DNA of 58,146 bases. Origin: a virus. Position 1 is the first letter of the stretch. The number at the start of each line of letters is the position of its first letter. The position numbers and the translations under genes were made by a program. The stretch is taken from positions 1-58,146 of the IMG/VR virus record IMGVR_UViG_3300030102_005682; one strand, written 5' to 3'. A model generated the notes under the pieces. The model saw nothing but the letters and a program-made list of their open reading frames with translations, ran no database searches and was not told the DNA's origin. Shown here piece after piece: positions 54,740 to 58,146 of this stretch.

Positions 54740-56242
54740 TTGAAATACGAGAAATTTAGAGAGATATTTAAAGGTTTAGATAGAGCCTATGGTGTCTATT
54801 ATAAAGGTGAAACAAAGGAGAATGGAAAGCTTTCTGGTAAAGCCTACATTAAAAAAGAGCCTTTGTTTGATCAATACTATGATGCTCATCTAGACGGTAA
54901 GGACCCTGGACTAGGGGTAATTCCTATCATGGACGACTCCAATTGTTTTTGGGGTTGCTGTGATATTGATAAGTATCCTCTAGATTTCAAAGCTATAATA
55001 AAAAAATTAAGAAACAAAAATATTCCTATGATTGTGTGTCGTTCTAAGAGTGGCGGGGCACATCTATTTCTTTTTACTAAACAGCCTGTGCCTGCATCTT
55101 TAATGAGAACTAAGTTATCAGAGATAGCTGCCTCTTTAGGATATGCAGATTGTGAAATATTTCCAAAGCAAGAAGAGATAAAAAAAGATAGAGGAGACAC
55201 AGGTAATTTTTTAAACCTACCTTATCACGGTGGTGATGAGAGTATGAGATATGCCATGGATGATGAGGGTAATTCATTATCTGTGGAAGAGTTTTATCAA
55301 CTATATGATAAATATGTTTTGACTCCAAAAGAACTAAAAGATGTAAAGGTTGTTGAAGAGTCAAGAGAGTTAAAGGATGGTCCACCTTGTTTGGAAACTT
55401 TGATGGCTGAGGGTTTCCCTGAAGGTACAAGAGACAATGCTTTGTATCAATATGCAGTGTATGCAAAGAAAGCTTTTCCTGATCACTGGCAAGATAAGAT
55501 ATCTGAGTTCAATCATAAATATATGGACCCAGCTTTATCTGTTAACCAGGTAAATAAAACAATCAGACAGCATGAAAAGAAAGAGTATGCGTACAAATGT
55601 AAAGATCAACCAATGTGTTCACATTGTAATTCTAATTTATGTCGTCAAAGACAGTTTGGTATTGGTGTAGATTATGAACATAAGTTTGGTGATTTAACGA
55701 AGTATCAATCCGATGAATCTGTTTGGTTTCTAAACGTTGATGGTAGGCGTTTAGAGTTAACCACAGATAGCCTGTTCGAGCAGTCTAAGTTTCGAAAAGC
55801 TTGTATGGATAATTTGAATGTACTCCCAAATCCATTGAGTAATAGAGACTGGACTGCTCGTATTCAGCAGCTACTACAATCAGTCGAAATAATAGAAATG
55901 CCCAAAGAGGTTAGAAAGGAAGGTCGCTTTGAACAACATCTCGATAATTTCATTAATGATCAAGGTAAGGCACTCAATATTGAAGAAATTCTTATTGGAA
56001 AAGCCTGGTCAGAAGACGGAAAAATCTACTTCAAAATGTCTTCACTAGAAGAATATTTAATGAAGAAGAGGTTTACTGAGTTTACTACAACTCAGATGGG
56101 AGCACGTATCAAACAAATAGGTGGTGGCGATACTCGTAAGAGAGTTCGTGGTCGCTTGGTTTACATGTGGTACGTGCCCGACCAAGAGAAAGAAGAGGTA
56201 AACTTAGACTTACCTTCTATGAAGGAGGAGATACCATTTTAA
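54740..56242 (+). CDS. AEP-type primase (PrimPol/TOTE-like), TTG start
   Basis: I choose TTG 54740, which has GGGAG 5-9 bases upstream, over TTG 54728 that lies in the terminator. The catalytic D75-x-D77 (CCDIDKYP) and S104-G-G-A-H108-L motif are typical of archaeo-eukaryotic primases, with EIFPKQ and TGNFLNLPYHGG downstream. The middle has a Cys cluster (YKCKDQPMCSHCNSNLC) that fits a zinc site. The C-terminus ends EEIPF, the same tip as the ssDNA-binding protein. It synthesises primers and likely works with the polymerase and helicase genes beyond it. Confidence 0.85.
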   Translation: MKYEKFREIFKGLDRAYGVYYKGETKENGKLSGKAYIKKEPLFDQYYDAHLDGKDPGLGVIPIMDDSNCFWGCCDIDKYPLDFKAIIKKLRNKNIPMIVCRSKSGGAHLFLFTKQPVPASLMRTKLSEIAASLGYADCEIFPKQEEIKKDRGDTGNFLNLPYHGGDESMRYAMDDEGNSLSVEEFYQLYDKYVLTPKELKDVKVVEESRELKDGPPCLETLMAEGFPEGTRDNALYQYAVYAKKAFPDHWQDKISEFNHKYMDPALSVNQVNKTIRQHEKKEYAYKCKDQPMCSHCNSNLCRQRQFGIGVDYEHKFGDLTKYQSDESVWFLNVDGRRLELTTDSLFEQSKFRKACMDNLNVLPNPLSNRDWTARIQQLLQSVEIIEMPKEVRKEGRFEQHLDNFINDQGKALNIEEILIGKAWSEDGKIYFKMSSLEEYLMKKRFTEFTTTQMGARIKQIGGGDTRKRVRGRLVYMWYVPDQEKEEVNLDLPSMKEEIPF

Positions 56243-57324
56243 AACATTTAGATTTATTTTCAGGTATAGGTGGGTTTAGTCTTGGTTTAGAAGAAGCAGG
56301 ATTAGTTGATACGGTAGCTTTTTGTGATTGGGAGGCTTACTGTCAAGAAGTTTTAAGAAAACATTGGCCAGGCGTGCCAGTGTATGGAGATATAAAGGAG
56401 CTAACACATGAAAGACTCAGAGCAGATGGAATTAATTCCATCGACATCATCACAGGAGGATACCCCTGTCAGCCTTTCTCAGTCGCTGGACGACAAAAAG
56501 CTGAAAAGGATCCGAGACATCTCTGGCCAGAGTATTTTAGGCTTGTCAAAGAACTCAGGCCAACTTGGGTCATTGGAGAAAACGTTAGTGGACACGTTAA
56601 ACTCGGTCTCGACACCGTACTCGAGAACTTGGAGAGTGAAGGTTACTCAACAAGGACGTTTAGTATTTCAGCTTCGAGCATCGGTGCCAACCATCAACGG
56701 GAAAGGATCTGGGTTATTGCCCACGCCAACGACACAGGAGATAGAACATCACGACATCAATTTAACAAAGACAGGGAGAAGATTATCAAAGGACGGGAAG
56801 AGCAGTCACAGTTTGAACTTAGCAGATACGGTGAGGGTTTGGAGAACTCCAGATGCTCACAGTGGCCGTGGAGCTTCGAGCAAGGAAAGAATGAAGATGA
56901 AATTAGAGAAGGGTATGCCAATCAGCCTGAACGATCAGGTGGCACATCCGAACTTGATGTGGCCGACTCCAAGAGCATCAGCAGCGATGGCAGAGGACAT
57001 CAAGAATATACAGAAGCGGGGCACGGAGAGGGGCAGGTTAGAGGAGAGAGTGGCTTTAAGATGGCCGACTCCAACTACAAACGACAGCAAGAACAACGGG
57101 GGAGCATCTCAACTACGAGCAGGCAGGAGAGGTTTTGGAAAGAATCTGAATGCCGTAGTAGCGCAGAGATCTCAAAATGGTGGGAGTCTGAACCCGACGT
57201 GGGTCGAGTGGCTCATGGCTTACCCAAAAGGGTGGACAGACTTAAGTGCTTAGGTAATGCAGTTGTACCTATTATTCCTTATCTGATCGGTAAAAGTATT
57301 CTAGAGACATACGACATTGAGTAA
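56236..57324 (+). CDS. DNA cytosine-5 methyltransferase, probable ATT start
   Basis: Motif I DLFSGIGGFSLG (6-17), motif IV GGYPCQPFS with catalytic C78, motif VI ENV (115-117), motif VIII QRERIW (154-159) and motif X RLKCLGNAVVP are intact, so the enzyme should methylate cytosine C5, protecting phage DNA from restriction. No ATG/GTG/TTG lies near the expected N-terminus; ATT 56236 follows AAGGAGG at ideal distance, giving (M)LKHLDLF. The variable target region (about 160-320) has four A(D/N/H)-type repeats (HANDT, LENSR, VADSK, MADSN). A second gene overlaps it in the +1 frame. Confidence 0.93.
   Translation: MLKHLDLFSGIGGFSLGLEEAGLVDTVAFCDWEAYCQEVLRKHWPGVPVYGDIKELTHERLRADGINSIDIITGGYPCQPFSVAGRQKAEKDPRHLWPEYFRLVKELRPTWVIGENVSGHVKLGLDTVLENLESEGYSTRTFSISASSIGANHQRERIWVIAHANDTGDRTSRHQFNKDREKIIKGREEQSQFELSRYGEGLENSRCSQWPWSFEQGKNEDEIREGYANQPERSGGTSELDVADSKSISSDGRGHQEYTEAGHGEGQVRGESGFKMADSNYKRQQEQRGSISTTSRQERFWKESECRSSAEISKWWESEPDVGRVAHGLPKRVDRLKCLGNAVVPIIPYLIGKSILETYDIE
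56408..57253 (+). CDS. Overlapping +1-frame gene inside the cytosine methyltransferase (281 residues)
   Basis: It has its own ribosome binding site (AAAGGAG at 56394-56400, 7 bases before ATG 56408), wholly inside the methyltransferase gene. The product contains SLEKTLVDTLNS, W-x-VKVTQQGRLVFQL, four repeats LLPTPTTQE, VWRTPDAHS, MWPTPRASA and RWPTPTTND, and the end LNPTWVEWLMAYPKGW. From memory, proteins with this same series occur in many phages, labelled hypothetical or methyltransferase. Each WPTP unit uses the same bases as an ADS/ANT-type repeat of the methyltransferase. About 78% of the methyltransferase codons are shared. Confidence 0.85.
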   Translation: MKDSEQMELIPSTSSQEDTPVSLSQSLDDKKLKRIRDISGQSILGLSKNSGQLGSLEKTLVDTLNSVSTPYSRTWRVKVTQQGRLVFQLRASVPTINGKGSGLLPTPTTQEIEHHDINLTKTGRRLSKDGKSSHSLNLADTVRVWRTPDAHSGRGASSKERMKMKLEKGMPISLNDQVAHPNLMWPTPRASAAMAEDIKNIQKRGTERGRLEERVALRWPTPTTNDSKNNGGASQLRAGRRGFGKNLNAVVAQRSQNGGSLNPTWVEWLMAYPKGWTDLSA

Positions 57325-58146
57325 TACAAACATTATCTTTGGTCCACCAGGGACAGGTAAGACGACTAGGTTATTGCGTATCGTGGAAGAAGAATTGGAA
57401 CGTGGAACACCGCCCGACCGCATAGGATATTTTGCATTTACCCGCAAAGCTTCTCGTGAAGCGATTGATCGAGCCTGCACAAAATTTAATTTACAAAGAA
57501 AAGATTTTTCTAATTTTAGAACTTTACATAGTCTTGCCTATCACTCTTTATCTTTAGATAAAACAAATGTTATGAAAGATGAGCATTACAATGAGTGCTC
57601 TGACTTACTTCAAGTTAAATTAAAAAACGCAGATAAAACTGTAGACAATTACGGTGCCTTTGTAGCTGAGGATGTTTATATGCAACTCATAAATTTAGCT
57701 AAGGTTACAAACGAGCCTTTAAATAAAGTGTTTCATGAGTATGGTCACGTGCCTGGGGGTTGGTTGAAACTGGACTATGTTGATAGGGCTTTAAAAAAAT
57801 ATAAAGAAGAAAGAAACTTATTTGATTATACAGATATGGTTATGGAATATAACAAACAAAAGCCACAGTGTAAGTTAGAAGTATTGATTGTTGATGAGGC
57901 TCAGGACTTATCTTACATACAGTGGGAGATGATAAACAATATGAAAGATCAAGTAGAAAGAGTTTACATAGCTGGAGATGACGATCAAGCCATATTCAAA
58001 TGGTCAGGTGCACAGCCTGACTTTCTAATAAATTTAGAAGGTAAAAGAGAAATACTCAATCAATCATATAGAGTGCCGATAGCAGTGCATCGAGTGGCAA
58101 ATAGTTTAGTGTCAAGGATAGATAATAGGGTGCCAAAAGAATACAT
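57317..58146 (+). CDS. UvrD-like SF1 helicase, N-terminal part (3' truncated by contig end)
   Basis: TTG 57317 overlaps the methyltransferase stop. Walker A is FGPPGTGKTTR (8-18), then FAFTRKAS (motif Ia type) and LIVDEAQDLS (motif II), GDDDQAIFKWSGA, NQSYRVP. The frame is open to the last base. The remaining part of the gene is at positions 2-1249. In the overlap the two copies differ mostly at silent sites; I noted only two amino-acid changes (Gln/Glu, Lys/Asn). Confidence 0.92.
   Translation, partial: MSNTNIIFGPPGTGKTTRLLRIVEEELERGTPPDRIGYFAFTRKASREAIDRACTKFNLQRKDFSNFRTLHSLAYHSLSLDKTNVMKDEHYNECSDLLQVKLKNADKTVDNYGAFVAEDVYMQLINLAKVTNEPLNKVFHEYGHVPGGWLKLDYVDRALKKYKEERNLFDYTDMVMEYNKQKPQCKLEVLIVDEAQDLSYIQWEMINNMKDQVERVYIAGDDDQAIFKWSGAQPDFLINLEGKREILNQSYRVPIAVHRVANSLVSRIDNRVPKEY
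57589..58146. repeat. Right copy of divergent terminal overlap
   Basis: Aligned base for base with 1-558 with 42 substitutions and no indels. It supports a circular or circularly permuted genome assembled from a mixed strain population rather than a fixed terminal repeat. Confidence 0.9.

Follow-up and report, generated by a model that had tools for sequence, protein, structure and literature searches.

A phage C5-cytosine methyltransferase probably encoded as two polypeptides in overlapping reading frames

Annotation pipelines usually dismiss long genes nested within another gene on the same strand. Here we analyse such an arrangement in the IMG/VR virus record IMGVR_UViG_3300030102_005682 (positions 1 to 58,146; this 58,146-nucleotide stretch of DNA is hereafter referred to as the window), in which an inner open reading frame (ORF) of 281 residues (56408–57253) sits in the +1 frame of a C5-cytosine DNA methyltransferase (MTase) frame (56239–57324), both on the plus strand, as are the window's gene parts described below. 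We refer to the product of the outer frame as alpha and to that of the inner frame as beta. A comparison of related loci, together with structural modelling, suggests that the locus encodes one C5-cytosine DNA MTase as two polypeptides from overlapping frames, a reading to which we assign a probability of roughly 85%.

Organization of the overlapping genes

The alpha gene (56236–57324) matches PF00145 (E value of 4e-44) and carries the C5-MTase motifs I–VIII and X, without motif IX; GYPCQPFS, ENV, QRERIW and GNAVVP can be read directly in its sequence. The large catalytic domain with motifs I–VIII occupies residues 1 to 166 (56239–56736), as delimited by an AlphaFold2 model, its superposition on M.HhaI and a profile comparison, and contains motif IV (GGYPCQPFS, 56455–56481). 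A stretch between motifs VIII and X (56815–57225), distinguished by low predicted confidence, as expected of disorder, and by its substitution pattern, precedes the motif X helix region (57229–57309), which was assigned from the sequence and the AlphaFold2 model. Within this region, GNAVVP lies at 57253–57270, and shares its first base with the end of the beta stop codon. The putative alpha start is an ATT at 56236, which follows GGAGGAG; the modelled chain begins at 56239. No ATG, GTG or TTG occurs near motif I in the alpha frame (56228–56242). The putative ATT start overlaps the upstream stop codon (ATTTTAA), an arrangement common to the related loci L001, L003, L067 and L170 (related loci are given L numbers), and other homologues have an ATG.

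The beta gene (56408–57253) begins 169 bases into the modelled alpha frame and is complete, as supported by its match to PHROG 1008 (E value of 2.4e-28), codon reshuffling and the substitution pattern. Its ribosome-binding site, AAGGAG (56395–56400), lies within alpha codons, seven bases upstream of the ATG at 56408. The N-terminal region of beta (residues 1 to 103, 56408–56716) is encoded over alpha motifs IV–VIII, where the substitution pattern indicates that both frames are constrained. It is followed by four tandem 'WPTP' cassettes of about 40 residues each: cassette 1 (56717–56839, LPTPTTQE...ADTVRV), the start of which is dual-coded with alpha motif VIII; cassette 2 (56840–56959, WRTPDAHSGRG...LNDQVAHPNLM), which is also found in L027 with other neighbours; cassette 3 (56960–57061, WPTPRASAAMAED...LEERVALR); and cassette 4 (57062–57169, WPTPTTNDSKNNGG...LNAVVAQR). 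Motif IX (LNPTWVEWLMAYPKGWTDL) follows at 57188–57244.

The original prediction, made from the DNA letters and their translations, had described a complete second gene with a ribosome-binding site at 7-base spacing and repeat units coded in two frames, and these claims hold: the four inner W/L-x-TP units are the same bases as the outer AHANDT, LENSRC, VADSKS and MADSNY. The inner motifs that it singled out as conserved are borne out among related loci. It had also taken the MTase frame to be intact; motifs IV, VI, VIII and X are indeed present, but the absence of motif IX had been overlooked.

The open +1 frame is a gene

Synonymous resampling of the MTase codons according to phage codon usage gave a mean of 14.9 stops (minimum of 4) in the +1 frame over the overlap, and permutation of the MTase's own synonymous codons gave a mean of 9.1 (minimum of 2). 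None of the 20,000 synonymous reshuffles yielded a stop-free +1 frame, and the open frame of the window therefore exceeds chance. Essentially all of about 105 distinct related loci have a long, open +1 frame, and their +2 frame mostly contains 8–60 stops. As controls, five canonical MTases from phages or other viruses, all with a motif IX of the classical type, contain 11–19 stops in the +1 frame, with longest open runs of 45–142 codons. The original prediction had named frequent +1 stops in related MTases as one finding that would count against it. Among loci retrieved with MTase-only queries, a +1 ORF with motif IX is present in 72 of 80, and the remaining eight end at a contig edge before the motif IX point; this sample is not perfectly neutral, as two of the six query patterns came from the 5′ or motif-rich part and four from the variable part. 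The inner ORF is a real gene.

Selection on the two frames

In a +1 overlap, the first codon position of the outer frame is the wobble position of the inner frame. A comparison of the window with L003 revealed 46, 14 and 3 substitutions at MTase codon positions 1, 2 and 3, respectively, in the cassette region, changing 54 alpha residues and 11 beta residues. In the alpha-only flanks, outer position 3 takes 15 of 21 and 9 of 14 differences, as in any gene, and over motifs IV–VIII, where both proteins are conserved, the differences amount to 3%, compared with 12–21% in the flanks. Across 47 locus pairs (each locus was used once, and phylogenetic independence is not strict), outer positions 1, 2 and 3 carry 1334, 611 and 474 substitutions, respectively, in the cassette region, and 198, 103 and 547 in the alpha-only 5′ region. 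In the cassette region, substitutions at position 1 outnumber those at position 3 for 46 of the 47 pairs, whereas in the 5′ region position 3 takes the larger share in all 40 informative pairs. The cassette region alignment was guided by the inner protein, and the closest pairs, which have few or no gaps, show the strongest effect.

Constraint on the inner gene is also visible outside the cassettes. The third positions of alpha change at 0.133 per codon over motifs IV–VIII, compared with 0.285 in the 5′ region. At the ribosome-binding site, the alpha lysine codon is AAG in 31 of 31 divergent loci and the alpha glutamate codon is GAG in 25 of 31, against a background elsewhere in the genes of these loci of 35/101 for AAG and 36/103 for GAG; the inner ribosome-binding site is preserved despite codon usage. 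Selection acts on both frames, and the alpha stretch over the cassettes is a passenger that evolves almost freely. The earlier proposal that the two proteins must co-evolve base for base is thus too broad: dual constraint is confined to motifs IV–VIII and the surroundings of motifs IX and X, and over the cassettes the inner frame alone is constrained.

Alpha as a probable catalytic subunit

Alpha combines motifs I–VIII, including the catalytic PCQ, and motif X in a single chain, as expected for a C5 MTase. Its profile match to M.HhaI covers residues 11 to 179 only, with a trace of motif X. AlphaFold2 predicted residues 1 to 166 and the motif X helix with confidence (predicted local distance difference test (pLDDT) scores mostly of 75–96, with one dip to 57), and residues 193 to 329 at a pLDDT of 30–50. 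The model superposes on M.HhaI (Z score of 24.7, 2.0 Å) over 196 of 327 residues, including the motif X helix, so that alpha has no equivalent of about 130 M.HhaI residues, a number that matches the size of the M.HhaI small domain. The small domain of M.HhaI contains the recognition region and motif IX (PMC3404938). No motif IX was found in frame 0 of any related alpha of the nested type, and the alpha chain contains no folded small (recognition) domain; because both are missing, we class alpha as one subunit rather than a complete enzyme. The earlier assignment of the variable target region to the outer frame is not supported, given the pLDDT of about 30 for this stretch and the excess of outer over inner changes between the window and L003.

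Beta and the single-chain enzymes

Beta residues 13 to 279 align with positions 39 to 281 of the 329-position profile of PHROG 1008, a family annotated as 'DNA methyltransferase', and beta carries a motif IX (LNPTWVEWLMAYPKGW) that is absent from the outer frame. A group of actinophage MTases, comprising Gordonia phage Jabberwocky gp4, those of the mycobacteriophages RitaG (gp71), mcgavigan and Yorick, and Rothia phage Spartoi gp40, are single chains that contain, in one frame and in this order, motifs I–VIII, PTP cassettes, motif IX (EWMMGWPAGWVT) and motif X (GNGVCPQQA); one to several 'LLPTPxxxD' units are followed by 'RLxAAFxEWMMGWPAGWVT' and then by motif X. The C-terminal halves of these proteins match PHROG 1008 with E values of 1e-33 to 5e-72. 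In an unguided alignment with canonical MTases, the single-chain segment LNPEFSEWMMGLPKGW falls on the canonical RKLTPRECWRLQGFPD, which is motif IX, directly before motif X, and the C terminus of the window's inner family in turn aligns with the single-chain motif IX (hhalign E value of 5.7e-8). As judged from these alignments, beta is homologous to the recognition-plus-IX half of the single-chain MTases, and the inner ORF would therefore supply the enzyme of the outer frame with its recognition region and motif IX.

The inner protein had been described as unnamed, a view that its place in PHROG 1008 and its match to half of the single-chain MTases overturn. The partnership with the MTase proposed at the same time is supported, but not with a complete MTase, because the outer frame lacks the recognition domain and motif IX. 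Pfam and NCBIfam returned nothing for the inner protein, Pfam gave only sub-threshold, unrelated matches for its homologues, and neither the inner profile nor JewelBug gp80 yielded a match in PDB sequence searches.

Modular cassette arrays

Between motifs VIII and IX, the inner frames of related loci contain 0–7 units, usually 2–4, each of which opens with [WLF]xTP, has a median length of 40 residues and commonly ends in a conserved L-x-x-V-like stretch. There are 145 distinct cassette arrays. Of the 56 cassette clusters that recur in more than one locus, 48 occur beside different neighbours, the clusters being somewhat loose as they were built by single linkage. Such modular variation is the behaviour of recognition modules, and the position of the PTP cassettes, together with this behaviour, indicates that they are probably target-recognition modules. 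In L027 (475–2208), L033 (2998–4341) and L070 (3167–4390), the inner ORF runs past motif IX and the alpha stop codon, and further WPTP cassettes can be read beyond both in L027 and L070.

Distribution and genomic context

We surveyed 248 loci, some of them redundant, from phages and bacterial genomes. The nested layout, with alpha motifs I–VIII and X in frame 0 and motif IX in the +1 frame, was observed at 210 loci. At 16 loci, mostly of mycobacteriophages, alpha ends earlier and motifs IX and X are both in the +1 frame; six loci have the single-chain layout, and the remainder are mostly truncated contigs. No locus among the 248 has beta without the MTase, except for truncated contigs. In JewelBug gp80 and Firecracker gp5, the cassettes and motif IX, with motif X still attached, are in the +1 frame and overlap alpha by about 180–210 bases. 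The inner gene is found in genomes from many phyla, and a scan of one genome per species identified 406 relatives; the nested arrangement, as predicted from reading frames, is present in hundreds of phages and prophages.

A few loci depart from these layouts. In Streptomyces phage Raleigh (L168, 798–2357), the +1 frame holds the PTP units and frame 0 holds motifs IX and X, a layout that seems intermediate between the single-chain and nested forms. Paenibacillus macquariensis (L254, 1212–2221) has a frame-switched, possibly decayed copy, in which the inner N-terminal part is broken by a stop, motif IX is in the alpha frame and motif X is in another frame. Because these two copies mix frames, the layouts appear to interconvert by small insertions or deletions. 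In L096 (2986–3943), alpha stops immediately after motif VIII and the inner frame remains open to the contig end, which is possibly a split like that of M.AquI (described below) or a broken passenger stretch. Five loci (L179–L183) with equal match scores and lengths lie on one chromosome of a Roseovarius metagenome-assembled genome (OX638333.1), which suggests several near-identical prophages or an assembly repeat. A bacterial restriction–modification version was sought in Gammaproteobacteria and one bacterial family, and only prophage-like contexts were found in the regions read.

In the window, the MTase gene is flanked by a primase-like gene on one side and a helicase gene on the other, as judged by eye, and no restriction enzyme was recognized beside it, which would fit an orphan, protective modification. 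The window ends (1–558 and 57589–58146) overlap with 92.5% identity, and 36 of the 42 mismatches affect third positions of codons in the helicase gene; this overlap gives the record the look of a circular genome whose assembly combined two strain variants.

A proposed two-chain enzyme and its alternatives

We propose that alpha supplies the catalytic large domain, with S-adenosylmethionine binding, the catalytic cysteine and motif X, and that a disordered linker replaces its small domain. Beta would be this small domain; its translation would begin within the alpha gene at a start codon of its own, served by its own ribosome-binding site, presumably on a message shared with alpha. It would pack on alpha through motif IX, and probably also through its N-terminal 100 residues, to complete the DNA-binding cleft, in which the tandem PTP cassettes would choose the DNA sequence. 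The assembled alpha–beta complex may be active as an orphan modification enzyme, probably a multispecific one, and shield the phage DNA from host restriction; complex formation, activity, the role of the cassettes in recognition, multispecificity and the anti-restriction role are all our inferences. With recognition placed in the frame that alpha leaves unconstrained, cassettes could be gained, lost or swapped without harm to catalysis. We lean towards a wider reading, in which the inner frame is an overprinted, swappable C5 specificity array that evolves by duplication, loss and exchange, and the nested, overlapping and single-chain versions interconvert by small frame changes.

Several observations weigh against the two-chain enzyme. 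The hhalign match spans only 25 motif IX columns, and the cassettes are tied to those of the single-chain MTases by pattern and position, without a scored alignment. An AlphaFold2 model of beta alone, a check that the original prediction had recommended, is poor (mean pLDDT of 50), and Foldseek found no meaningful fold match for it. Similarity to the beta N terminus is present in the +1 frame of four of six single-chain MTases and is therefore in part a consequence of alpha conservation; in a canonical MTase pair, too, third-position change declines somewhat over the region matching the beta N terminus. Finally, a 2012 paper places the predicted recognition domain of M.EcoHK31I, the closest known enzyme, in the large subunit (PMC3404938).

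This last point favours an alternative that we regard as unlikely, in which beta provides only motif IX and a scaffold and target recognition resides in the variable stretch of alpha, which has a suitable position and length. However, this stretch is predicted to be disordered and accumulates changes per codon about twice as fast as beta across the 47 pairs (about five times as fast between the window and L003), and the PTP cassettes of the single-chain MTases lie exactly between motifs VIII and IX, the usual seat of recognition domains. Much less probable is ribosomal frameshifting after motif VIII that joins the +1 information to alpha, with no separate protein. A single +1 shift in the overlap would indeed yield a complete I–X chain in the mycobacteriophage loci L146 and L147, but the window family would need two shifts because its motif X has returned to frame 0, the ribosome-binding site of beta is kept against codon usage, and the +1 constraint reaches about 100 codons upstream of the first cassette. 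Slighter still is the chance that beta is an independent protein, such as a regulator or an anti-restriction factor, merely housed in the MTase gene: its lack of recognition by Pfam and NCBIfam and its poor model when predicted alone would suit such a protein, but beta always accompanies the MTase, truncated contigs aside, and the same segment is part of the single-chain MTases. That the open +1 frame is an untranslated by-product of MTase codon choice can be practically discarded, despite the +1 runs of up to 142 codons in canonical MTases and the higher G+C content of the overlap (49% against 38% for the genome, a difference that stop-codon avoidance in two frames might produce), since no reshuffle was stop-free, the substitution pattern is inverted toward the inner frame, and the extra cassettes of L027 and L070 extend past the alpha stop codon. 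A chance open frame was likewise rejected on the reshuffling and the substitution pattern.

If the two-chain enzyme is as proposed, many phage MTases annotated as complete are probably half-enzymes, and cloning an 'MTase gene' with no heed to the inner start, or recoding it, may therefore destroy the specificity subunit. It also suggests that methylated motifs are unpredictable from the annotated protein, because the recognition modules would sit in the other frame. With 210 of 248 loci nested, relatives in many phyla and a clear selection signature, the locus is a strong natural system for studying the evolution of overprinting.

Comparison with known systems

SPbeta/phi3T-type multispecific orphan phage C5 MTases string together several recognition modules, each about 40 residues long. 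The beta array resembles them in its serial modules of this size, whereas those enzymes are single chains in one frame with module sequences unlike those of the window. The single-chain actinophage MTases share the PTP cassettes and the type of motif IX with the window, and differ in that all parts are in one frame, with motif X after motif IX. The proposed beta array would be to C5 MTases what the separate specificity subunit is to type I systems. Annotated proteins homologous to the inner one, and likewise nested in an MTase, include the 'Mte8-like protein' of phage K1ind1 and the 'g55 internal gene' of Paenibacillus phage Shelly, for which the annotation describes no function and gives the frame relation no further than 'internal gene'. 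No description of nested phage C5 MTases was found in the open-access literature, outside which most subscription papers fall.

M.AquI (CYCGRG) is a C5 MTase naturally split between motifs VIII and IX (PMC3404938). Its layout, with motifs IX and X on the small subunit, is that of the mycobacteriophage relatives JewelBug gp81/gp80 and Firecracker gp6/gp5 and of the 16 loci described above; the window differs, as alpha carries motif X and the beta gene lies entirely within that of alpha.

The small subunit of M.EcoHK31I is encoded in an alternative frame inside the large one and has 176 residues, compared with the 281 of beta. At the window locus, too, the small-subunit gene lies within the large one in another frame. 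M.EcoHK31I is a two-subunit C5 MTase recognizing YGGCCR (Lee, Kam & Shaw 1995, as cited in PMC3404938), with motifs I–VIII and X on the large chain and motif IX on the small chain (PMC3404938), the same division as at the window locus; we compared it by its published description only. The window gene differs from M.EcoHK31I in that it belongs to a phage, is an orphan beside which no restriction enzyme was seen, and has four cassettes, and the evidence here places recognition in beta, whereas the target recognition domain predicted for M.EcoHK31I is in the large subunit (PMC3404938). As M.EcoHK31I is divided alike, the two-chain kind with motifs I–VIII and X on one chain and motif IX on the other was already known from one characterized enzyme; the features that appear to be new are how widespread it is, the array of cassettes, and the evidence for recognition in a nested frame under a passenger outer frame.
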